A DNA stretch of 37,248 nucleotides from Elusimicrobiota bacterium. Its GTDB lineage: Bacteria; Elusimicrobiota; Endomicrobiia; Endomicrobiales; JAPLKN01. The number at the start of each line of letters is the position of its first letter. Within the stretch, counting starts at the first letter, position 1. The DNA lies in assembly GCA_026388075.1 (NCBI GenBank), contig JAPLKN010000063.1:1-37248 (forward strand). The letters are read 5' to 3'. Positions 22,282 to 37,248 of this stretch are shown piece after piece. The position numbers and the translations under genes were made by a program. The notes beneath the pieces were generated by a model. The model made no database searches and was not told the DNA's origin. It worked only from the letters and a program-made list of their open reading frames with translations.

Positions 22282-22987
22282 ATGAAAAAGAAACGTATTT
22301 TATCGGGAATGAGACCTTCTGGAAAACTTCATCTTGGACATTTGTTCGGGGCATTAAACAATTGGGCAAAATTACAGGATGAATATGAATGTTTTTACAT
22401 GGTAGCTGACTGGCACGCGCTTACAACCGACTATGCTGATACTTCGGAAATTCTAAAAAATACCAAAGAGATGGTTATTGACTGGCTTTGCGCCGGGCTT
22501 GATCCCAAAAAAAGCGTTTTATTTAAACAGTCTGAAATTTTAGAACATTCAGAACTTTTTACGCTTCTTTCCATGATTACTCCTTTAGGTTGGCTTTTCA
22601 GATGTCCCACGTACAAGGAGCAATTGAAAGAAATTACCTGCGATAAGAAGCAAAGTACAGCAGATGTTTACTGATCCTCAAAAAATTAGAGCAAACGATC
22701 CGGGACATCCCGAGGGCTGCGTTGTTTACGCTTTTCAGGAAATTTACAACAAGGATGTTAAAACGCTGAAAACTGACTGTCAACAAGGTAAGATCGGATG
22801 CGTTGCCTGCAAAAAAAATCTTTCACAATTATTAATTGACGGCCTTGCTTCTTTGAGAGAAAAAAGAAAAGAGATTGAAAACAATAAAAATCTTGTAGAT
22901 GATATTTTAAGTGACGGGAAAAAAAGAGCAAAAGAAGTGGCTGAAAAAACAATGGAAGAAGTAAGGAAAGCGATAAAACTTCTATGA
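22282..22987 (+). pseudogene. trpS: Tryptophanyl-tRNA synthetase with central deletion
   Basis: The N-terminal part (22282-22674) has the class I HIGH-type motif PSGKLHLGHLFGA and ends ...STADVY then TGA. The C-terminal part (22664-22987, a different frame) begins MFTDPQKIRANDPGHPEGC and has the anticodon-binding end. About 100 residues are missing between them, including the GYPVLQAADI and KMSKS blocks needed for catalysis. Together the parts have 230 or so residues against about 330 for the family. The junction reads GATGTTTAC, which fits both sides. The gene cannot be active as read. The 3' end overlaps scpA by ATGA. Assembly error is the main alternative. Confidence 0.85.
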
Positions 22988-25503: not shown

Positions 25504-28395
25504 ATGTCAACAGTAAATAATAACAAACAATTGTTTATTAACGATCAATATCTAACCATAAAAAAGATCGGGCAGGGCGGTTTTGGCACTGTCTGGAAAG
25601 CTTACGATTTTTCATTGCGAAATTTCGTCACCATTAAAGAACTTTTAAAAGATTTTACTGAACCCAAATATATTGAGATGTTTTATAAAGAAGCGCTAAT
25701 AGCTAAAAATATTATTCATGATAACATTGTCAGGGTTCAGCATTTCTGGAAGGGAACAAACGATTCATATTATATCGTTATGGATTATGTAAGCGGAGAC
25801 GATCTGGAAAATATCCTTAGCAAATGCAAGGAAATTAATATAAGGCTTCCATGGGAAATCGCAGTTCATATAACCGGAAATATTTTAAAAGCCATAGATT
25901 TTGCAAATCGCGGGGCAAAGGATCCTATTACGGGAAGGCCTTTCGGAATCGTATACAGGGATCTTTCTCCGGGAAATGTGCTTATTTCATTTGAAGGCAA
26001 CATTAAACTAAGCGATTTCGGAATTGCAAAGACTGCGGATGACATAAGCTGCAGGATTAAACGAAGAATAGTTACGGGAAAATATGCCTATATGTCGCCG
26101 GAACAGATAGAGTGCGACCCTGAAATAGATCATCGTTCAGACATTTTTTCCGTAGGTATAGTCTTGTATGAAATGCTTTCAGGAAAACCGTTATTTAAAG
26201 GCACAAATGAAGAAATAAAAGCCCAGGTTCTTGAAACTAAATTTGATTCTAAATTGTTAAATAATTTGAATTTGTCCGACGATCTTGTTGAAATTGTTGG
26301 GAAAGCCCTTGAAAAAAAGAAGGGAAACAGGTATGAAAAAGCCCTGGAAATGTTCAGGGACATGAGAAGGCTATCAAAACTTAAAGAAACAGAAGAATTA
26401 ACTCTGGAATTATCAAGTTTTCTAACTAAAATAATGCCTGAACGTTATAACTCTGAGAAAGAATCAATCAAATTTGTGAAACAGCTCAATATTCAGGATA
26501 TCAAAAGCGATATTAACATTGAAAAATTCTTCTGCAAAGATTTTATTATGGGGGAACTTCACAGGGAAGAACAAGAGGATTTTGAAAAAATAAAAGAAAT
26601 TTCAGAATCAGAAGACAAAGAAATTAATCTGAGTTATGAGCCGGAATTTGAAACAAAGGCTGAAGAGAAAGGAAAAACAGTTTTTGAGGAAGTGGGGGAT
26701 TGGTTCATAAACAAATTCATAACCTACAAAAAAATGATTATACGCGGTATAATCGCATTTTTTGTAGCTTTAATAATTTTTGGCGTAGCAGATACTTTCT
26801 TTCAAATCACAACTTTTGGAAAATATGTTTTTTCATACCTTTATCCTCCCGATATAATAATAACCACGGTACCCAGCGGGGCAAAAGTAAGCATGAGAAC
26901 CCGCGAGGGCAAAATTATAGTGTCAGATCAGGATTCAACGCTTCCGGTAAAATTGAGAAAGATATTGCCGCGCACATACATAATCACTGCAGAGAAAAAA
27001 GGCTTTAAACCGACCGAAAGAGTAATAAAGATTGAAGAGCCGACAAAGAGCGCAAAGAAGAAAAAACTTCAAAAAATTGAAATGTTTTTTGATTTTATGC
27101 TTCGTGTGCGTTCGGATATTGAAGGCGCCGATATATTTATCGACGGGAATAAGGTAGGCGTTTCAACATGGACAGGGACTATTACATCAGGGGAACATAC
27201 AGTAAAACTAACTGCTCCGGGTTTTGAAGATCTGGGCTCTGTGGCTAAAGAAACAAAAGAAGGGCAGTGCAGTATAGATTTTACAAAAGCAGCACTTCCG
27301 GAAATTTTTGCAAATGCGGATCCAAAATTTTGGAAATATGAAATGACGTCTATTGGCGAAGATACTGTTTTTGTGCTTTCCGGCAGCATGGTAAAAAAAG
27401 TTACAATTAATACTGTTCCACAAAGGATGATTCTGCACATAAAAAATGAAAGTAAAGATAGAGGAAAAACGCCAATAGTTGTCGCTTTAAAATCAGGCGA
27501 ATACTTGCTGCGTTTTATGGATCCGGAAGGAAAATATGCTGAAGCCACGGCAACGCTTTTAGTCGGAAAAGGAAGTTCCGAAAGCATGAGGATTTTTTTA
27601 AGGAGATGGGTCACTGTTAAAATTAAAACCAAAGGACTCTCAAATGAACCTTTTGCTACAAATGTTATTATCAAGGGTTCTAAAGTGGATATAAAGGGCG
27701 AAGTTTCCACAACAAAACCTTTCAGAATTGCTCTTTATCCCGGCACATATAAGTTTCTTTTCGAAGGAAATGCGGAATATGATTCATTTGAAACCAAAGA
27801 AATTGATATTAATGATGAAAGCACAATAGTTGCCGAGATGCAATATAAAAAAGTGATGGTAAGGATTGTCGTTAAAGACAGTGATGCCAGAGATCCTATA
27901 CCTGATGCATCTATTTGGACAAAAGATAAACTTCTGGGACAAACGGACAAAGATGGGGTCTGGGAAGGCCTTGTAGAATACGGGATGAGCACTCTTGGAA
28001 TTGTTGCTACAAATTATCTCGGAACAACAATAGTTGAAGAAATAAAGCCGAACGAGAAAAAAGTAATTGAAGTTTATCTGGTTCCGGATACAAAAATACC
28101 TGTTAGTGCAATACCAGAACCGAATAAGATCGCAGAGCTGAAAAATTCTCTAGAAGAAGTAAGCGCTACAGTCGGCAATGCGGTTGGCGCAACGGTAGGC
28201 ATAACTACCGGAAAAAATGTTCCGGAAGCTATAAGCAAAAATGTCGTTACCGGCGTTTCAAAAAGCACTGAAACGGCAAAATCCGGCCAAAAAGAAATTA
28301 CTATTTATTGTTCTAATTGCGGCACATCCTATAATATTACACCCGGTAAGAAATTAAGGTTTTGCACAAATTGCGGAAAACCTTTACGATACTAA
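25504..28395 (+). CDS. Transmembrane Ser/Thr kinase with PEGA repeats and C-terminal zinc ribbon
   Basis: A 963-residue Hanks-type kinase. The glycine loop is GQGGFGTV (residues 23-30), the ATP lysine is Lys45, the catalytic loop is YRDLSPGN (151-158; Tyr replaces the usual His of HRD), DFG is at 171-173, and YMSPEQ follows. A transmembrane helix covers about 411-431. Beyond it lie PEGA domains (about 450-513 and 530-590) and more beta-rich segments up to about 870. The end has four cysteines, C936, C939, C954 and C957, in a CxxC...CxxC zinc ribbon. With one helix the kinase is cytoplasmic and the ribbon outside, which is unusual. A PP2C phosphatase and an FHA protein follow. Confidence 0.9.
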   Translation: MSTVNNNKQLFINDQYLTIKKIGQGGFGTVWKAYDFSLRNFVTIKELLKDFTEPKYIEMFYKEALIAKNIIHDNIVRVQHFWKGTNDSYYIVMDYVSGDDLENILSKCKEINIRLPWEIAVHITGNILKAIDFANRGAKDPITGRPFGIVYRDLSPGNVLISFEGNIKLSDFGIAKTADDISCRIKRRIVTGKYAYMSPEQIECDPEIDHRSDIFSVGIVLYEMLSGKPLFKGTNEEIKAQVLETKFDSKLLNNLNLSDDLVEIVGKALEKKKGNRYEKALEMFRDMRRLSKLKETEELTLELSSFLTKIMPERYNSEKESIKFVKQLNIQDIKSDINIEKFFCKDFIMGELHREEQEDFEKIKEISESEDKEINLSYEPEFETKAEEKGKTVFEEVGDWFINKFITYKKMIIRGIIAFFVALIIFGVADTFFQITTFGKYVFSYLYPPDIIITTVPSGAKVSMRTREGKIIVSDQDSTLPVKLRKILPRTYIITAEKKGFKPTERVIKIEEPTKSAKKKKLQKIEMFFDFMLRVRSDIEGADIFIDGNKVGVSTWTGTITSGEHTVKLTAPGFEDLGSVAKETKEGQCSIDFTKAALPEIFANADPKFWKYEMTSIGEDTVFVLSGSMVKKVTINTVPQRMILHIKNESKDRGKTPIVVALKSGEYLLRFMDPEGKYAEATATLLVGKGSSESMRIFLRRWVTVKIKTKGLSNEPFATNVIIKGSKVDIKGEVSTTKPFRIALYPGTYKFLFEGNAEYDSFETKEIDINDESTIVAEMQYKKVMVRIVVKDSDARDPIPDASIWTKDKLLGQTDKDGVWEGLVEYGMSTLGIVATNYLGTTIVEEIKPNEKKVIEVYLVPDTKIPVSAIPEPNKIAELKNSLEEVSATVGNAVGATVGITTGKNVPEAISKNVVTGVSKSTETAKSGQKEITIYCSNCGTSYNITPGKKLRFCTNCGKPLRY

Positions 28396-28410
28396 ATAGA
28401 GGTCTGTAAA

Positions 28411-29904
28411 GTGCATATCAAAATAAAAAATAAACGCTGTTTTATTCCTATAATTGTAATTATGGTTTACTTTGCGTGCACTATAAACATTTTTGCGCAA
28501 TCTAAGAAGGACATTTCGGATCCTGTGCTTCAGGAAATTTTATCTTTTTTTTATACCAGAATGCCTCGTTTTATTGACCAGCACGGACCCAATTTGTTCG
28601 TAGCGGACGGCCCTTTAACCAGAGGAAAGTTTATAAGCGCTTTGTATGAATATGATAAATCTTTGAAATTTGCGGCTAAAGCAGAAATTGACGAAATGAA
28701 AGAAAAATTAGCTCTGCTTGAAAAAACTAGTCAAACATCTAATTATCGCTATGACATCAATAAGATTATCACTGATATTCAGCCGGGAATGCCCCTGCTT
28801 CTGGATAAAACTCTTAATACTTCAAAAGTATTTTCTGATTTTAAAAATGAAATATCAAAAAAGCTTCCTAGCATGCCTACTACTCAAGAAAATATCAACA
28901 AAACATTGGTAGAGAATCAGAACGATCTTTTAGGAAGGATTGAAAAAGTGGAAGAAGCAGTCGCTAAAACTGAGCCTGCGCCATCTATAGATCTGATAAA
29001 AATTGAAAAAAGAATTAACGCTCTTGAAAAAATAAAAATATCTCAAGAGACTAATGAAGAAACGCTGGCTAAAAGGGTGGAAAATCTTGAAAATCAAATT
29101 GGCAAAAGTACGAAATCTGAAGGTAAAAGTTTAAATTTTGATGAAATAAATAAACGCATTTTATCGCTTGAAAGCTTTCTAAACAAAAATACCGGCTATT
29201 CTAATTCTGACTTGTCTAAGCTTGAAGAAAGGATTAGTGCTCTAGAAAGAAATCCCGGGTCTTTCAAGGCTTCAAAATCGGAAAATTTATCGGCATTGGA
29301 AGATAGGTTGGCTGAACTTGAAGGAAAAATTGAAAGCGCTGAAAGAACATCTTTGAGTCAATCAAGTTTATCTGAAAATATAGCTGTTCTATCAAAAAAA
29401 ATAGAAAAGCTTGAAATGAATCTGGGCCAGAAATCTTCTTTGACTATGGATTTAGCGAAAATTGAAAAAAGGACAGAAAGGCTTGAAAACATGCCAGCAG
29501 ATAAAGGTCTTTCAAGCGATTCGCTAAATGATCTTACAAAAAGGATAGGAGTACTTGAGACCTTGGCGGACCAGAATAAATTATTAGAAGGAAAACTTTC
29601 CAGACTTGAGAATAAAATAAATTCATTAAGTGCCCCGGCATCTAGCGAATCTATGACTGTCACAAATATTTCTAGCAGGGAGATAGCGGAATTAAACAAA
29701 AGAATTGACGCTGTCGAAAAAGTAGTTCCAATATATAATAAATTTGAAAAGGAAATTTCCCGAATTGATAATAAAATATCTAGCGTGGAAAGAATATCGT
29801 CGTTAGGAAATCTTTCAGCAAGTGAAGATCTAGCCGAGCTGAGTAAAAGGCTTGATGAGATTGAAAAATCTATTAATTCAATTAAAAATACTAGAAAACC
29901 ATAA
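28411..29904 (+). CDS. Exported coiled-coil repeat protein
   Basis: 497 residues starting with GTG, set by AGAGG upstream. An N-terminal signal (IPIIVIMVYFACTINIFAQS) is followed by a globular part near residues 35-90 with DGPLTRGKFISALYEYDKS, faintly like an S-layer homology repeat. The rest is long coiled coil with about twelve copies of a unit close to [LI]xKRIxxLE, spaced mostly 24-31 residues apart and joined by Ser/Asn-rich linkers. I recognise no family. It probably forms an elongated stalk in the periplasm, perhaps tethering peptidoglycan or the outer membrane; that role is inference from shape and neighbours. Confidence 0.75.
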   Translation: MHIKIKNKRCFIPIIVIMVYFACTINIFAQSKKDISDPVLQEILSFFYTRMPRFIDQHGPNLFVADGPLTRGKFISALYEYDKSLKFAAKAEIDEMKEKLALLEKTSQTSNYRYDINKIITDIQPGMPLLLDKTLNTSKVFSDFKNEISKKLPSMPTTQENINKTLVENQNDLLGRIEKVEEAVAKTEPAPSIDLIKIEKRINALEKIKISQETNEETLAKRVENLENQIGKSTKSEGKSLNFDEINKRILSLESFLNKNTGYSNSDLSKLEERISALERNPGSFKASKSENLSALEDRLAELEGKIESAERTSLSQSSLSENIAVLSKKIEKLEMNLGQKSSLTMDLAKIEKRTERLENMPADKGLSSDSLNDLTKRIGVLETLADQNKLLEGKLSRLENKINSLSAPASSESMTVTNISSREIAELNKRIDAVEKVVPIYNKFEKEISRIDNKISSVERISSLGNLSASEDLAELSKRLDEIEKSINSIKNTRKP

Positions 29905-29933
29905 AAGGATTTTAATAATATTTAGGAGAAACA

Positions 29934-32183
29934 ATGCCGCGTCTTTTGATTAAGAAAAGAGCAGAAATTACAGCTGAATATAAGATTAATAATCTTAGAA
30001 TAATAAATATCGGCAGTATAAGAGCCAACGATGTGTTCCTGCCTGACAAAAACATTTCTGAAAATCACTGCACTATAACCAAAGTCAGTGATACCTATGA
30101 AATAAAAGATAATAACACGCTTACCGGGACAACTTTGAATAAAAAATCTATTACGATATCGGAATTAAAATACAATGACGAAATAGGAATAGGGAATTAT
30201 ACGATTATATTTCTTAAAGATGCGCTAAACATAATGCGTGAAATAGAAGAAGAAGATTATTCATTAGATGAGTCAAAAGGGAAAAATTATTTTCTTTTGT
30301 GTATATACGGAAGATTTGAAGGGAAAAAATATCATATAAAAAATTCCGGTACATTCATAGGGCGCGAAAAAATCTCCCCGAAGGGTATTGAAAATGATGT
30401 AATTCTGGCCGGTGACATGACCGTTTCTAAAGGTCATGCAAAAATTGTGCTCAGAGAAAATTTATATTTTTTGAAAGATATTGGAAGCACTGGCGGAGTG
30501 GCGATAAATGGTAAAAAAGTAGGACAACTTAATGAAATTCAAATTAGAAATGGGGATGAGATTGCTATTGGCAGGACGATATTCAGATTTGCTGAAGACG
30601 GGAATGATGATTATTCGCTTCCGAAAAATCATGAAATATTCCTTTTAAAAGCCAGAGGGCCGTTCATAAGGTTTATAGTAGTCAGCTCGCTTATTATCTC
30701 ATTTATGTTGGGATATTCGGGCATAGTAGGAATAAAAATTAGCCAGTCAACTGTTAGAAAAATATCTTTTGATCTTGAAACTGCTTGGAATCCTTCAGGA
30801 AATCCTTTGCGGAATTTGCCGAAAGAATATGATATTTCAGGTTCAATGGCTATAGGAGACTTAAATAGCGATGGTACAAATGATATCGTGTTTTTGAGTC
30901 CTTCGGGATTTCTTTATGCCTGGGACGGGAAAAAAGGCAATCAAATATTTAAGCCGGTTGAAATATACAATTCAGGCAAGTCGTCTCCGGTTCTTTATGA
31001 TATGAATAATGACGGAATTTTAGATATCGTAGTTGTTTCGGATACTTCCCTTTTGTATTTAATTGACGGTAAAAGCGGAGGAATTATCAGGAAAGAAGTT
31101 TTAGGGGGAGCAATTTCTGAATTATCTCCGGCAATTGCCGACCTAGACGGGGATGGAAAACAAGATGTTGTTGTTTGTGCTGAAGACGGTATGGTTCATT
31201 TCATATATGACCCTGGTTTTGATGCGGATTTCCAAAAATATACTGAATTCGTTGAAGGCCCGATTTATGCTTCTCCTGTTATTCTTTCTACAGATAAAAT
31301 ATCTCCGCTGGTTGTTGTTTGCTGTTATAACAGCAAAGTTTTTTTCTTTGACGGAAAAAATAGATCAAAAAAAACAGTAGATATTGTAGAAAAAACCGGC
31401 AAAGTTCATTTATTGTCTTCCCCGCCGGCTGTGGGTGATTTAAACGGAGATGAAATTCCCGAAGTTGTAGTTCTGTCAAATACGCCTCAATATGTATCGG
31501 CAATAGATATAACCAGTTTTGGAGTTAACTGGACATATTTTGTTGAGCCGGTACCTCCCTCGGGAATTAAACATAATTCTCCTCCGGTAATAGCAGATAT
31601 TAACGGTAACGGAACTAGCTATGTTGTGTTTGTTTCTCCTAACGGTTATTTATATGCTCTTAAAGGAAAAACAGGTTATCCTGCCGGAGAACTGCTGTAC
31701 AAAACAAAAATTCCAGACGGAGGAAGACTTATCGGAGGATTGTCGTTATATGATTTTTATAAAAATGGTTCGGTTGGTGTGGCTTTTGGCACTGAAGAAG
31801 GTGATGTGGTTATAGCCCGAAGCCAGCCTCATGCAAGGGATTGGGAAATTGCGACGGCAATAAAGATCAGCAATGATCCTATAACTTCTACTCTAATGAT
31901 TGGCGATATTAACGGAGACAGCAAGATAGAAATTCTTTGCAGTAATTTCGCTAATTCAATTCAGATGCTTAAAAGCAATTTAAGAACATTTAAAAATAAG
32001 TTAATATGGCCGGTATATTTGGGAGGGCCCTTAAGAACAGGTTCTTCGGATTTAAGAGAAAATAAAACACCTTATATAATTAAATTATGTTTAGGTGTTT
32101 TAATTTTTCTTGCTTTAATGATTCTATATTTTATTCATAGGAATAAACAATATTCTAAAAGGTATAGGACTTTTTATTTGTGA
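29934..32183 (+). CDS. Transmembrane FHA protein with FG-GAP/VCBS beta-propeller
   Basis: 749 residues. Two FHA domains are at the N-terminus: the first is diverged (GSIRANDVFLPDKNISENH). The second is canonical, with GRE at 143-145, SKGHAK at 165-170 and GSTGGVAING, and should bind phosphothreonine. A membrane helix at about 244-270 leads to a large outer region with repeats such as GDLNSDGTNDIV, ADLDGDGKQDVV, GDLNGDEIPEVV and GDINGDSKIEIL, Ca-binding DxNxDG loops of a propeller. A second helix (about 714-734) returns to the cytoplasm. AGGAG precedes the ATG. The likely phosphate donor is the kinase at 25504. It overlaps the phosphatase gene by four bases. Confidence 0.88.
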   Translation: MPRLLIKKRAEITAEYKINNLRIINIGSIRANDVFLPDKNISENHCTITKVSDTYEIKDNNTLTGTTLNKKSITISELKYNDEIGIGNYTIIFLKDALNIMREIEEEDYSLDESKGKNYFLLCIYGRFEGKKYHIKNSGTFIGREKISPKGIENDVILAGDMTVSKGHAKIVLRENLYFLKDIGSTGGVAINGKKVGQLNEIQIRNGDEIAIGRTIFRFAEDGNDDYSLPKNHEIFLLKARGPFIRFIVVSSLIISFMLGYSGIVGIKISQSTVRKISFDLETAWNPSGNPLRNLPKEYDISGSMAIGDLNSDGTNDIVFLSPSGFLYAWDGKKGNQIFKPVEIYNSGKSSPVLYDMNNDGILDIVVVSDTSLLYLIDGKSGGIIRKEVLGGAISELSPAIADLDGDGKQDVVVCAEDGMVHFIYDPGFDADFQKYTEFVEGPIYASPVILSTDKISPLVVVCCYNSKVFFFDGKNRSKKTVDIVEKTGKVHLLSSPPAVGDLNGDEIPEVVVLSNTPQYVSAIDITSFGVNWTYFVEPVPPSGIKHNSPPVIADINGNGTSYVVFVSPNGYLYALKGKTGYPAGELLYKTKIPDGGRLIGGLSLYDFYKNGSVGVAFGTEEGDVVIARSQPHARDWEIATAIKISNDPITSTLMIGDINGDSKIEILCSNFANSIQMLKSNLRTFKNKLIWPVYLGGPLRTGSSDLRENKTPYIIKLCLGVLIFLALMILYFIHRNKQYSKRYRTFYL

Positions 32184-33619
32184 AAATTGAACATTATGAA
32201 AAAACCGACGTAGGAAGATTAAGATCCGATAACCAAGACAGTCTTGGTGTATTTGAATCTGAAAATCTTTTTGTCGTGTGTGACGGTATGGGCGGAGGCG
32301 CGGCAGGGGATTTTGCCAGCCAGCTAGCCGTAGAAATAGTAATCAAGTCGTTCAAACTGTTGGATGTTAATGATATAAAGGGTATTTTAGGCAAAAGCAT
32401 ACAATCTGATTCTCCTGAAGCGTTGAAGCCGATGGCAGCTATCAGGCTTGCCAACCGGGCTTTAAAAAATTATTCGGATAAATTTCCCAGACTTTCAGGA
32501 ATGGGAACAACAGTATCTTCAATATTATTTGATAATAAAAAAGATGTCGTTCATATCTACAATGTCGGAGACAGCAGAGTTTATAGAATAAGAAGCGGAA
32601 GAATAGAGCTGCTGACAAAAGACCATACAAAAGTCAACGAACTAGTTGAATCGGGCAAAATGAGCCAACAGGAAGTAAAAAATGCTGAAATACAAAGCAT
32701 GCTTACCCGTGCTCTTGGAACTCAAAGTACGGTTAAGATTGACTACAGACAGGAAAAAATTAAACCCAATGACTGTTATCTACTTTGCAGTGACGGCCTT
32801 AACGGCGAACTTGAGGATTTTACAATACGTGATATAGTTTCAATTAACAAAGACAATGCCGAAAGTGTGGTAAACGAATTAATTCACGCTGCGAATAATT
32901 CCGGAGGAAAAGATAATGTTACGGTTGTTTTTGTTAAGACGGATTTTGAAACTGCTTCAAAAGAGAATCTTGGAACTGAAAAATTGGCAAAAATTGTTAC
33001 GATAAATGAAGAAGCTCAGGCTGAATCCATTTCAGAAGACAAGGTATTGAAGAAAATTCTGCCAAAAATCAGTGTTAAAGTACCTGAACTGGCAAAAGAA
33101 AAAAATATTTTAAAAAGCCCTGTATATATAGGAACCATTATTGCTGTTCTTCTATTAAGTTTTACAGCCTTTTTAATAAATTCTAATAAAAGTGTTTATA
33201 ATAAAGCGCTGATGGATTTAACTGGAAAAGTATCCGGTGTAAGCATGGAAATAAGAAGCCCTTCAAAAGCACAGCTGGACCTTTTCCAGAAATCAAATGA
33301 TAATGTCTATAAGCTTCAGCTTATTCAGGACTGGCTAAAGAACAAGGGGGCAAATACTATTCCTTTAGGGGACGTTTATGTTTCTGTCAAAGGAAAAGAC
33401 GGGGCGGAAGAATTTAACGGAATTTCGGGAATAAATCCCCTGGAAATAGATCTTCCCAAAGGAAATCACAAGATTATCGTTAAATATCCGGGATATAAGA
33501 TTATTTCCGAGAAAATGGAACTTAAGGACAGTATAGATGTTTCTCTTGAATACGGAGATTCTTTGAAACCGTTGATTTTATTTATTGTTCCTGAAAAAAT
33601 ACACAGGAGGAAAACCTAG
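32180..33619 (+). CDS. Transmembrane PP2C-family Ser/Thr phosphatase
   Basis: 479 residues with a GTG start overlapping the FHA gene as GTGA. PP2C motifs: TDVGRLRSDNQDS (N18, D20), DGMGGGAAGD (D35-G36), GMGTTVSSIL, NVGDSRVYRIR, LTKDHTKVNELVESG, LTRALG, CSDGL and GGKDNVTVV. All the metal-binding acidic residues are in place, so it should be active. A membrane helix (about 315-336) carries an outer C-terminal domain ending in a PEGA-like fold (PLEIDLPKGNHKIIVKYPGY). It probably reverses the neighbouring kinase's phosphorylation. Typical bacterial PP2C partners of kinases lack such an outer domain. Confidence 0.92.
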   Translation: MKIEHYEKTDVGRLRSDNQDSLGVFESENLFVVCDGMGGGAAGDFASQLAVEIVIKSFKLLDVNDIKGILGKSIQSDSPEALKPMAAIRLANRALKNYSDKFPRLSGMGTTVSSILFDNKKDVVHIYNVGDSRVYRIRSGRIELLTKDHTKVNELVESGKMSQQEVKNAEIQSMLTRALGTQSTVKIDYRQEKIKPNDCYLLCSDGLNGELEDFTIRDIVSINKDNAESVVNELIHAANNSGGKDNVTVVFVKTDFETASKENLGTEKLAKIVTINEEAQAESISEDKVLKKILPKISVKVPELAKEKNILKSPVYIGTIIAVLLLSFTAFLINSNKSVYNKALMDLTGKVSGVSMEIRSPSKAQLDLFQKSNDNVYKLQLIQDWLKNKGANTIPLGDVYVSVKGKDGAEEFNGISGINPLEIDLPKGNHKIIVKYPGYKIISEKMELKDSIDVSLEYGDSLKPLILFIVPEKIHRRKT

Positions 33620-34402
33620 TTGGTTTCTAACGATATTAAGGTATTGATCATAGACGACGATCAGCAGTTATTGGATACAACAACTGTTATATTGAGGCTA
33701 AATGGTTTTTTGGCTTATTCAGCTAACACAGGAAAACAGGGGCTTAAAAAAGCAAATGAAATAAAACCCGATATAGTCATTTTGGATGTATGGCTTCCCG
33801 ATGTTGACGGCTTTCATGTTTATCTTCAACTGAAAGAAAGGCCTGATACGGCGAATATTCCGGTTATTTTTATTACCGGGGATGAAACTTTAGATATTGA
33901 AAAAGGCTTTTCTGTCGGCGGGGATGACTGCATAGTTAAGCCGATAGATCCCGAATATCTTGCAACGAGGATTTTAAAATTAGTAAATAAAGAAAAAAAA
34001 ATTATTACGCCTACTCAAGCACCCAAAAAAAGGGTTCTTATTGTAGACGACGATCGCCAGATATGCGATATGCTCAAGAATTTGCTTATTCGAAAAGACT
34101 ATGAAGCTGATATTCTTTATGAAGGAATAAATGTTTTAAACGTTGCAAAAGAAAGAAAACCTGATATAATACTCTTAGATATCTCTTTTCCGTCAGGGCC
34201 GAGCGGTATAGAAATCTGCGGTATTCTAAAAAGTAATTCGGAAACTAGAGATATACCGATAATTATGATGACCGCAAATGAGGATATACAATCCGTTGAT
34301 AAATGTTTTGAGCTGGGCGCGGAAGATTACATATTTAAACCTTTCAGTTTGGAAGATTTATTATTAAGGATAAAAAAATATCAATTGGCAAGGAGGACTT
34401 AA
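33620..34402 (+). CDS. Double-receiver response regulator without output domain
   Basis: 260 residues, two complete receiver domains in tandem. The first has acidic pocket D12-D14, acceptor Asp56 (VILDVWLP) and Lys in VKPID. The second has VDDDR near 138-142, Asp187 (LLDISFP) and Lys in FKPF. No DNA-binding or enzyme domain follows, so it acts through protein contact or as a phosphorelay. The TTG start directly follows the PP2C stop; AGGAGG at 33605-33610 at nine-base spacing decides it. Its stop shares a base with the next ATG. It could receive phosphate from the kinase at 17851, the only histidine kinase in the window. Confidence 0.9.
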   Translation: MVSNDIKVLIIDDDQQLLDTTTVILRLNGFLAYSANTGKQGLKKANEIKPDIVILDVWLPDVDGFHVYLQLKERPDTANIPVIFITGDETLDIEKGFSVGGDDCIVKPIDPEYLATRILKLVNKEKKIITPTQAPKKRVLIVDDDRQICDMLKNLLIRKDYEADILYEGINVLNVAKERKPDIILLDISFPSGPSGIEICGILKSNSETRDIPIIMMTANEDIQSVDKCFELGAEDYIFKPFSLEDLLLRIKKYQLARRT

Positions 34403-36627
34403 TGTATTTTTATTATGGCCTTAAATTTTGCATAGAGATTGTCAGTTTTGCTTTCGGAACTTCTACAAAACAATTTTTCATTCGGCTTTCAAGAAAAGCT
34501 TTTTATTTAGCTTTAGTTTTTTTTATAGGGCAAGGGCTTCTATTTTCTTCATCAGGAATTACGTCCGGAGAAATTTCAACAATTAATCCTGATCCTCATA
34601 CTTCTTCCATGGGTTCAAGTATTCTTGCAAGCTATTATTCTCCCAGTTCAATTTTTGTAAATCCTGCTGGCATGGCTCAGTTTTATCAGCCTAAGTTTTC
34701 TTTTTCAAACGTACAGCTGACTGATGATATTAATTATAAGTTTGCAGGTTTTGTATTGCCGACAGAAAACGGGAATTTCAGCGGCGGAGTATCCCTTTTA
34801 TCATACGGAAATATCCAAGGCTATGATACAAACGGCATTTCCTATGATATACCGACTTCGGAAGACATGCTTTTTGTTCTAAATTTCGCATTTCCTTTAA
34901 AAAGAATTATTCCAGTTGAAAAAAATTACGGAAGTGTGGGCGTGAATTTAAAAGTTATAAATAGTTCTATTGCCGGCTATTCGGCGAATGCAGTTGCTTT
35001 TGATTTAGGCTGCATTTTCGGAATTTATGAGCCGATGGGACTAAGCGGAAGTTTTGTATTTAAAAATTTGGGGAAATCCTTGAATTATTATAAAAAAGAA
35101 GCCGTGCTTCCCACTGCATTTGATATAGGAATGAAGTACGAAAATCCTGATATTAGAAATTTTACCGGTGTAGCAACAATTTCTAGAACCACAAACGACG
35201 AATTGCTTACCTATGCCTGCGGAGCAAGTATTTCACCGATATATCCGTTAAGCGTAAGAATCGGCTGGCAGGAGACGACGGATTCCTTGAACTCGGGTTT
35301 GCGCGGGGGGCTTGGCCTTGATTTCGGAAATGTGAGCATAAATTATTCGGCTGAACCATTGAAAAATTTCTCGATGATTCAAAAAATAGGAATTGATATC
35401 GCTTTTAACAATATAGTTAACCCGAGTATAGCCTATGACTATTATCTCAACAAAAATTTTGAACTGGCCCGTGAAAAATATCTTAAGGGGGACTATGTGG
35501 ACTCCCGTCAAAGATTTGAAGAAATACTTTCATTATATCCGAATCATCAGCCTTCAAAGGATTATCTGGCAAAGATAGCTCAAAATCTTGAAAAAGTTGA
35601 GCAGAAAACTCAAGTAAAAATAAGCAGATACTTGTCCAAAGCGCGGTTAGCCACGTATGATAATAATTTGCTAAAAGCGTTGAAATACTATAACTATGTA
35701 CTTGGTATAGACCCTGTTAACGCTCAGGCAATTGAAGGAAAGAAAAATATTGAAGAAAGTAGGCAAAAGCTTGACCGTGGAAAAACTAGAAAGAAAAACG
35801 AAAGCAAAATTATTGAACTTTGGTCTCAGGCCAAGGAACTCTACGATAAATCGGATTATGTTTCTGCAAAAGATAAAATTAATGAACTCTTAATATTAGA
35901 CCCGGATAATGAAGAAGCAAAGAAATATTCAAAAGAAATCAATGCTAAGCTTGAGAAAATATCTAACGTTCAGATTGAGGAAATTTATCTTAAAGGAGTT
36001 TTATTGTATAGCGAAGAAAAATACGCGGAAGCTCTGAAATATTTTGATTCGGCAATATTGGCAAGCCCTAACAGGCAGGATGCCGTCAATTACCGAAATT
36101 TGTGCATTAAAAAGCTCAAAGAAAAACAAATAAAAGAAAAGGCTGAAAAGTCTTCTGATAAAGATACTAAAATTAAGCAGGAAATAGATGCTCAATACCA
36201 GACAGCTTTGAAACTTTATAATTCCGGCAAATTTTCGGAAGCCATGAAAGCATTTAGCGACATTCAAAAGACTTCCGAAGACTATTCCCTGAATCAGTAT
36301 TCGGAAAACTCAAGAATATATATTTTTAAAATCAAAAGCACTATGGCTGAGAATAATTTCAAAACGGCACAGGACTATGCGCGCAAAGGAAATTTAGAAG
36401 CGGCATATGAAGAATATAAAAAGTCGCTTGAAAATAATCCTGAATTTTCTTCTGCAAGAATTGAATATGACAAAGTTTCTGAATTGTTATCAAAAAGATA
36501 CTACGAAGAAGGAACCAAAGAATTTTCTAAGGGGAATCAGGTGAAAGCAAAAGAATATTTTCAGAAATCACTTCGCTATAAAAGCGATAACGTTGAATCA
36601 CAAAGAGCTTTGGATAGAATTAAATAG
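34402..36627 (+). CDS. PorV/PorQ-like outer-membrane barrel fused to TPR repeats
   Basis: 741 residues. A long N-terminus with a hydrophobic helix (FYLALVFFIGQGLLFSSSG, about residues 35-53) reads as a signal peptide. Next, about residues 60-345 resemble the PorV/UPF0164 barrel family: SSMGSSILASYYSPSSIFVN then PAGMAQ, and alternating beta strands with FGVSL-type glycine motifs. From about 350 to the end are TPR-like helices with repeated ARxKYLKGDYVDSRQRFEEIL, ALKYYNYVLGIDPVNAQA and EYFQKSLRYKSDN motifs. This is probably an outer-membrane protein with a periplasmic TPR scaffold. Its location before pal fits. The cargo or function is unknown. Confidence 0.8.
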   Translation: MYFYYGLKFCIEIVSFAFGTSTKQFFIRLSRKAFYLALVFFIGQGLLFSSSGITSGEISTINPDPHTSSMGSSILASYYSPSSIFVNPAGMAQFYQPKFSFSNVQLTDDINYKFAGFVLPTENGNFSGGVSLLSYGNIQGYDTNGISYDIPTSEDMLFVLNFAFPLKRIIPVEKNYGSVGVNLKVINSSIAGYSANAVAFDLGCIFGIYEPMGLSGSFVFKNLGKSLNYYKKEAVLPTAFDIGMKYENPDIRNFTGVATISRTTNDELLTYACGASISPIYPLSVRIGWQETTDSLNSGLRGGLGLDFGNVSINYSAEPLKNFSMIQKIGIDIAFNNIVNPSIAYDYYLNKNFELAREKYLKGDYVDSRQRFEEILSLYPNHQPSKDYLAKIAQNLEKVEQKTQVKISRYLSKARLATYDNNLLKALKYYNYVLGIDPVNAQAIEGKKNIEESRQKLDRGKTRKKNESKIIELWSQAKELYDKSDYVSAKDKINELLILDPDNEEAKKYSKEINAKLEKISNVQIEEIYLKGVLLYSEEKYAEALKYFDSAILASPNRQDAVNYRNLCIKKLKEKQIKEKAEKSSDKDTKIKQEIDAQYQTALKLYNSGKFSEAMKAFSDIQKTSEDYSLNQYSENSRIYIFKIKSTMAENNFKTAQDYARKGNLEAAYEEYKKSLENNPEFSSARIEYDKVSELLSKRYYEEGTKEFSKGNQVKAKEYFQKSLRYKSDNVESQRALDRIK

Positions 36628-36659
36628 AAATGTAAAAATAATATTCGGAGGGAACACTT

Positions 36660-37175
36660 ATGAAAAAGTTATTGGTAATTTCGTTAGCGGTTTTTTTGTT
36701 CATCGGATGCGCAAAAAAAACTTTAGTAAGAACCGGACAACAGGAATCTGCTGCTGTTACAGCGACGGCTACGCAGGAAATGGAGCAAGAGCCTTCGGTT
36801 CGTTTCTCGGATTGGGAGAAAATTCCTGAAATGCAGATCGGATACTTTGATTTTGACAAATCAGAATTGACTGAGGCCGCCAGAAATGCTCTCAAGAAAA
36901 ATGCGGAGTATATGAAAAATAATACGGATTTGACATTTTTAGTTGAAGGACACTGTGATGAAAGAGGCACGGTAGAATATAACCTTGCATTAGGTCAAAG
37001 AAGGGCTCTTTCGGTTCGGGAATATTACGCTAAATTAGGAGTTCCTCTTACGAATATCGGCACAATATCCTATGGTTCTGAAAAACCCGCGGTTTTAGGA
37101 TCAAGTGAGGAATCCTGGGCAAAAAACAGGCGCACGGAAACGAGAGTAAGGAACAGGAAACAAAATAATGAATAA
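36660..37175 (+). CDS. pal: Peptidoglycan-associated lipoprotein Pal
   Basis: OmpA-family lipoprotein that anchors the outer membrane to peptidoglycan and works with Tol proteins. The lipobox LFIGC sits in a signal peptide with the lipidated Cys at residue 17. A flexible linker is followed by the OmpA domain: YFDFDKSELTEAARNALKKN, VEGHCDERGTVEYNLALGQR and YGSEKPAVLG, ending RRTETRV. The length of 171 residues is normal. GGAGGG precedes the ATG. tolB and tolA lie outside the window. The next gene begins inside its last codons. Confidence 0.95.
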   Translation: MKKLLVISLAVFLFIGCAKKTLVRTGQQESAAVTATATQEMEQEPSVRFSDWEKIPEMQIGYFDFDKSELTEAARNALKKNAEYMKNNTDLTFLVEGHCDERGTVEYNLALGQRRALSVREYYAKLGVPLTNIGTISYGSEKPAVLGSSEESWAKNRRTETRVRNRKQNNE

Positions 37176-37248
37176 AAATATAATTCTTATTCCATTTTTT
37201 ATTTTAGTCGGATTTATTTTTTCCGGATGTTTTGCCACTTCAGGTGAA
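37168..37248 (+). CDS. Partial lipoprotein, runs off the window
   Basis: The ATG at 37168 overlaps the pal end by eight bases. The 27 visible residues are a signal peptide ending FSGCFATSGE, with a lipobox-like SGC. In many genomes the gene after pal encodes the periplasmic TPR protein CpoB/YbgF, but that family normally has a plain signal peptide, so I do not assign it. The 3' end is not in the window. Confidence 0.7.
   Translation, partial: MNKNIILIPFFILVGFIFSGCFATSGE

Follow-up and report, generated by a model that had tools for sequence, protein, structure and literature searches.

Circuits that combine a Ser/Thr kinase, an FHA reader and a PP2C phosphatase control wall growth and type VI secretion (T6SS). 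The closest described systems to the locus reported here are the PknB/PrkC kinases with their Stp/PrpC phosphatases and GarA/OdhI/FhaB readers. Our block shares with them a PknB-like kinase, a PP2C close to the Stp1 type (just under the model cut-off), OdhI- and FhaB-like FHA domains and probable kinase-FHA docking, but has PEGA in place of PASTA domains, a PP2C with its own transmembrane (TM) helix and PEGA domain, a two-TM FHA-propeller protein, and linked PorV-type genes. The T6SS set PpkA/PppA/Fha also unites kinase, PP2C and FHA protein, whereas no sheath gene was found in this genome and the FHA and PP2C proteins of the block are membrane proteins. BamB, an outer-membrane lipoprotein, is a scaffold of envelope proteins. 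The propeller of the block shares its fold (TMt about 0.75), but at about 14% identity, and it is joined to cytoplasmic FHA domains and anchored in the inner membrane at both ends rather than being an outer-membrane lipoprotein.

In the T9SS, which is under PorX/PorY control, the phosphorylated PorX receiver binds the motor protein GldL (PMC10951265), while cargo passes from Sov/SprA to PorV (PMC8754138). The locus resembles this system in its PorV family, SprA homologue, CTD proteins and nearby receiver protein. It differs in its Ser/Thr kinase/FHA/PP2C control, in a PorV fused to TPRs, and in lacking matches to the PorU peptidase and to GldL (the latter in a search where no control matched). 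Mosaic adhesive trimer (MAT) fibres of Bdellovibrio (PMC10769870) have a weak N-terminal match in relatives of this locus, but the match is below the model cut-off and the gene concerned is absent here. The parts are known; their combination appears to be new relative to the available literature.

Architecture of the block

The window is the whole stretch of DNA that was analysed (37,248 nucleotides), one entire contig (C63) of a 2.1-Mb genome (167 contigs, 95% complete). Its species has its own family (f1) among the sampled genomes of Endomicrobiales. G000 denotes the window's genome and other G numbers those of relatives; L, f and g denote loci, families and genera. Domain and family model searches of the window's ORFs found all genes listed in an earlier note on this DNA to be real. 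A tight block (25504-36627) runs from a Ser/Thr kinase through a coiled coil, a tandem-FHA propeller, a PP2C-PEGA protein and a double receiver to a PorV-TPR protein:

25504..28395, + strand: Hanks-type Ser/Thr kinase with TM helix, PEGA-like beta-domain string, flexible tether and C-terminal CxxC/CxxC knuckle (domain searches, hydropathy, alignment, structure model)
26668..26691, + strand: juxtamembrane motif KGKTVFEE with invariant Thr392 (19 of 19 orthologues), proposed FHA2 docking site
28411..29904, + strand: secreted coiled-coil protein with conserved N-terminal domain (domain search, hydropathy, alignment)
29934..32183, + strand: FHA1-FHA2, TM 247-265, BamB-like beta-propeller, TM 715-733, conserved basic tail (domain searches, hydropathy, alignment, structure match)
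32180..33619, + strand: PP2C phosphatase, TM 310-328, single PEGA domain, its start overlapping the FHA stop by 4 nt (domain and family models, hydropathy)
33620..34402, + strand: double receiver without output domain (domain search)
34402..36627, + strand: PorV-family barrel with C-terminal TPRs (domain and family models)
36660..37175, + strand: Pal, above the NCBIfam cut-off (family model)
37168 to the contig end, where it is cut: lipoprotein-like ORF (ORF call)

Intergenic gaps are 15 bases from kinase to coiled coil, 29 from coiled coil to FHA protein, -4 from there to PP2C, 0 to the receiver, -1 to PorV-TPR and 32 to Pal. Promoter and terminator counts in the window are close to shuffle means, and we place no weight on either. 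A full-scoring Hanks kinase, an FHA protein and an Stp-type PP2C occur only once each in the genome, and each of them lies in the block; together with the order conserved in relatives, this bears out the earlier note's idea of a dedicated circuit, and the circuit is co-inherited.

The kinase (Pkinase 8e-43, PEGA 3e-15) has its Hanks domain followed by a single TM helix (411-429 by hydropathy), as in PASTA kinases. A PASTA ectodomain was not found, PEGA taking its place, and the PASTA-kinase model scores 206 bits against a cut-off of 450. K45, D153, N158 and D171 are invariant in the orthologue alignment, and the nearest structures are of PknB, one of them solved with its substrate GarA. The ectodomain is modelled as successive beta domains, a disordered stretch and the knuckle; confidence in the model is low overall (pLDDT 66, pTM 0.35), and its ectodomain strand pattern alone was used. 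The zinc-ribbon-like CxxC...CxxC knuckle (window 28306-28386), predicted to lie on the periplasmic side, is nearly invariant across Endomicrobiales, but G009 has lost it. It would be unusual for such a knuckle to have a metal or redox role outside the cytoplasm.

Across 19 aligned orthologues, the linker before the kinase TM is variable except for the motif E-x-x-G-K-T-[VI]-F-E. Within the loci scanned, its GKTVFEE core is confined to the block kinases and absent from every other ORF. On sequence grounds, the FHA2 domain, which is intact, probably docks at this Thr392 motif.

The FHA protein has two FHA domains, OdhI- and FhaB-like by model match, and an FG-GAP propeller. The phosphothreonine-binding residues of FHA2 (G143-R144, S165, H168, N192-G193) are invariant; FHA1 has no arginine after its glycine. 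Structurally, the propeller is best matched by BamB, with an eight-bladed-type fold, but the protein does not meet the BamB sequence family (17.5 bits vs 285.2) and has no lipobox start. The helix leading to an outside propeller, as first described, was found, but the protein crosses the inner membrane twice and the second TM had been overlooked. This second TM is present in every full-length orthologue, and the short basic tail after it is conserved. Thus, on hydropathy, both ends of the propeller are tethered to the inner membrane. A contig scan of named genomes with a single FHA sequence, a query of shorter reach than an alignment, gave one weak propeller match, on a Flammeovirgaceae contig.

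The PP2C scores 224-225 bits against the Stp1-type model (cut-off 230) and 1e-4 for PEGA, and its catalytic D20, D35, D205 and D245 are invariant in the alignment. With the outer parts of both the FHA protein and the PP2C anchored at the inner membrane, and that of the PP2C consisting of about 150 residues with one PEGA, the earlier description of outer-envelope sensors finds no support in that form.

Over window 29800-29904, the coiled-coil protein is without the C-terminal hydrophobic segment (like ISLGLSMVAALFIAR) of relatives and G063. An SLH match of its N-terminal domain was obtained for one distant homologue alone (E 0.025, below cut-off), with none listed for the window protein; an SLH reading is otherwise unsupported by Pfam. 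Pal, listed in the earlier note among the adjacent genes, adjoins the block in this window only; it is probably not part of it, and a role as circuit partner finds no support. The lipoprotein, like Pal, is only a local neighbour.

Conservation and loss in Endomicrobiales

FHA orthologues occur in 35 of 60 genomes of Endomicrobiales, and about 30 of these cover the propeller. The gene order is kept in about 30 genomes, across families f1, f4, f5 and f6. The expected succession of kinase, FHA, PP2C and PorV-TPR genes was therefore recovered, and these genes are not scattered in relatives. Fetched loci have the order kinase, a cassette of three genes (fibre-like protein, CTD protein, PorV) where present, coiled coil, FHA, PP2C, receiver and PorV-TPR, with galT, glgA, ftsX, envC and ctp downstream in most relatives. 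The PP2C directly follows the FHA gene in 31 of 33 loci, almost always overlapping it by exactly 4 nt, which hints at translational coupling. Mirror-tree correlations of the block proteins are 0.88-0.95; flanking genes correlate nearly as well, so that these values show vertical inheritance only.

The cassette lies after the kinase in most relatives. It is absent from the window and from L045, which keep the coiled coil; L055-L058 lack both and keep the rest of the block. G009 (L059) has kinase, FHA and PP2C alone, without PorV-TPR and receiver. SprA was not detected in that genome, PorV matches number two, and there is no CTD match. Read from sequence, this single natural deletion shows that the kinase-FHA-PP2C trio is separable from the outer arm, and that outer arm and export machinery go together, once.

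Clean absences were also found. The gene immediately after scpB is glgA or galT in G014 and G034 and a remnant of glgA in G030, without the block. G014 is a complete single-contig genome from which the whole block is gone while scpB, glgA, ftsX and envC are retained; the block is thus dispensable. The same neighbours flank the site in genomes with and without it.

The block is broken in several small genomes of genus g6, in various states of decay (L060, L061, L063), the pseudogene calls being based on draft genomes. From this decay, the block may function where the cell meets its surroundings. Genus g6 includes a protist endosymbiont, and its decay states could serve for studying how symbionts lose genes. 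A contig of another Endomicrobiales genome, G012, matches plasmid NZ_AP017461.1 of Candidatus Endomicrobium trichonymphae and is identical over its 5,752 bases.

The profile search covered the phylum Elusimicrobiota (295 genomes). Outside Endomicrobiales, a match over FHA2 and propeller was found in G063 alone, in the order kinase ectodomain, CTD protein, PorV, coiled coil, FHA-propeller, PP2C and two receivers. Next after these receivers comes a gene for an FHA-GAF-class III cyclase protein (L086:655-2265, - strand). Most other FHA hits in the phylum are short FHA proteins, and the loci examined hold a different kinase-PP2C-FHA set. This second set, with its short FHA protein, occurs in other Elusimicrobiota (L064-L067, L088, L089); G003 and G004 have it in addition to the main block.

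Export genes in the same genomes

A Sov/SprA homologue, mostly of 1,760-1,900 aa, is present in most Endomicrobiales genomes, including that of the window. The window genome's own copy is a truncated gene with SprA_N above the Pfam cut-off, lying on C137 (L090:1843-12245, G000:C137), where it is cut by the contig end, with a PorV-type gene and an M6-peptidase-like CTD protein nearby. G003 (L091) has the same arrangement, and its SprA gene scores 166 bits against an NCBIfam cut-off of 200. The PorV family is strongly expanded in Endomicrobiales (18 matches in G000, 35 in G003, 30 in G004), with many CTD-type proteins; CTD-region matches in the window's genome number ten. The peptidase part of the PorU sortase was not matched; nearly every match to the PorU model falls in its C-terminal-domain region. 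The GldL/PorL motor model gave no match, in a search where no control matched either.

Among 60 genomes, 27 have both FHA block and SprA, three the block only, ten SprA only and 20 neither (p 1e-5). With the reduced genus set aside, the counts are 21/3/4/4 (p 0.047), a weak association. The genomes differ in completeness and are related, so these statistics count as support, not proof. In the relatives' cassette, gene 1 matches the N-terminal domain of Bdellovibrio MAT fibres weakly (E 2e-7, 1e-9; below cut-off), gene 2 has a FlgD/Por_Secre_tail/CHU_C-type C-terminal domain, and gene 3 belongs to the PorV family.

A proposed phosphorylation switch and its alternatives

We tentatively propose, at somewhat less than an even chance, that a PorV/T9SS-like cell-surface system of Endomicrobiales has in this block its own dedicated trans-envelope switch, operated by Ser/Thr phosphorylation. 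The kinase would read the periplasm through its PEGA string and autophosphorylate juxtamembrane Thr392. On the model of PknB-type kinases and their FHA readers, pThr392 would recruit FHA2 of the propeller protein, which shares the kinase's membrane, and the co-translated membrane PP2C would undo this. The propeller, as a periplasmic arm, could pass the state to the outer-membrane PorV-TPR protein, a contact that we infer with the TPRs as possible partner, and in relatives also to the PorV, CTD and fibre genes. Surface-protein export, attachment or anchoring would be adjusted as a result, with the receiver adding an aspartyl-phosphate signal as a second input.

Such a switch is supported by the order that the block keeps with the genes for CTD protein, PorV and PorV-TPR, also in distant G063, and by the clean absences in G014 and G034. 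Further support comes from the invariant Thr392 in a variable linker, the invariant FHA2, kinase and PP2C residues, and the structural match to PknB with GarA. The presence of SprA and its association with the block support a PorV/T9SS-like output, which fits better than the outer-membrane assembly or tethering proposed in the earlier note. Against the switch count the four non-reduced genomes with SprA and without the block, together with the p of 0.047. The G009 trio, lacking PorV-TPR, receiver and SprA, implies that these three genes serve, or once served, some purpose independent of the outer arm. The restriction of PorU matches to the C-terminal-domain part counts against a T9SS-like output; GldL was not matched either, in a search that is uninformative.

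What G009 retains would suit a general envelope-growth kinase of the PknB/PrkC kind, in which the trio would govern division or the synthesis of peptidoglycan, with the outer-membrane genes as operon accessories. The PknB-like kinase fold and the ftsX, envC and ctp genes downstream in most relatives point the same way. Yet the loss of the entire block from complete G014, where scpB, glgA, ftsX and envC remain, marks it as dispensable, its neighbours are the same whether or not it is present, and PASTA domains are absent; we consider this account rather unlikely. A quite improbable explanation, close to that first offered, is an envelope-stress circuit in which changes in the state of the outer membrane act on a BamB-like propeller and a coiled-coil tether. 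It draws on BamB as best match, the weak SLH match and the adjoining Pal, but the propeller sits in the inner membrane, Pal is not conserved beside the block, and L055-L058 lose the coiled coil while the rest stays.

A T6SS-type PpkA/PppA/Fha regulatory set would contain the same three kinds of enzyme and reader. As noted earlier, no T6SS is apparent: the VipB sheath gene was not found in this 95% complete genome, in a search whose control matched, and the score for the TagH model, 51.7, is far below its cut-off of 120.25. As far as a genome of this completeness can show, this assignment is rejected as extremely unlikely. A chance neighbourhood without functional link describes Pal and the lipoprotein correctly. 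For the block it has practically no probability and is refuted by the gene order kept in f1, f4, f5, f6 and G063, by the 4-nt FHA-PP2C overlap in nearly all loci, and by block-wise absence.

If the proposed switch exists, a kinase/FHA/PP2C set in which all members are membrane proteins with outer domains would have PorV-type genes as a new output for such circuits. T9SS-like parts would also extend to Elusimicrobiota, for which we found no such description in the open literature searched. The switch has a readily testable point, one conserved Thr and one FHA domain. A bolder version, which we regard as unlikely, is a Ser/Thr-phosphorylation-controlled T9SS-like surface organelle, in which a trans-envelope complex of kinase, membrane FHA-propeller and membrane PP2C with PorV-TPR would gate the display of fibre-like surface proteins in Endomicrobiales, the organelle decaying in reduced host-bound lineages.

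Elsewhere in the window (22282-22987), trpS is broken up into a pair of ORFs of 130 and 107 aa that overlap, compared with one of about 326 aa in relatives; a region seems to be missing, possibly through an assembly error.
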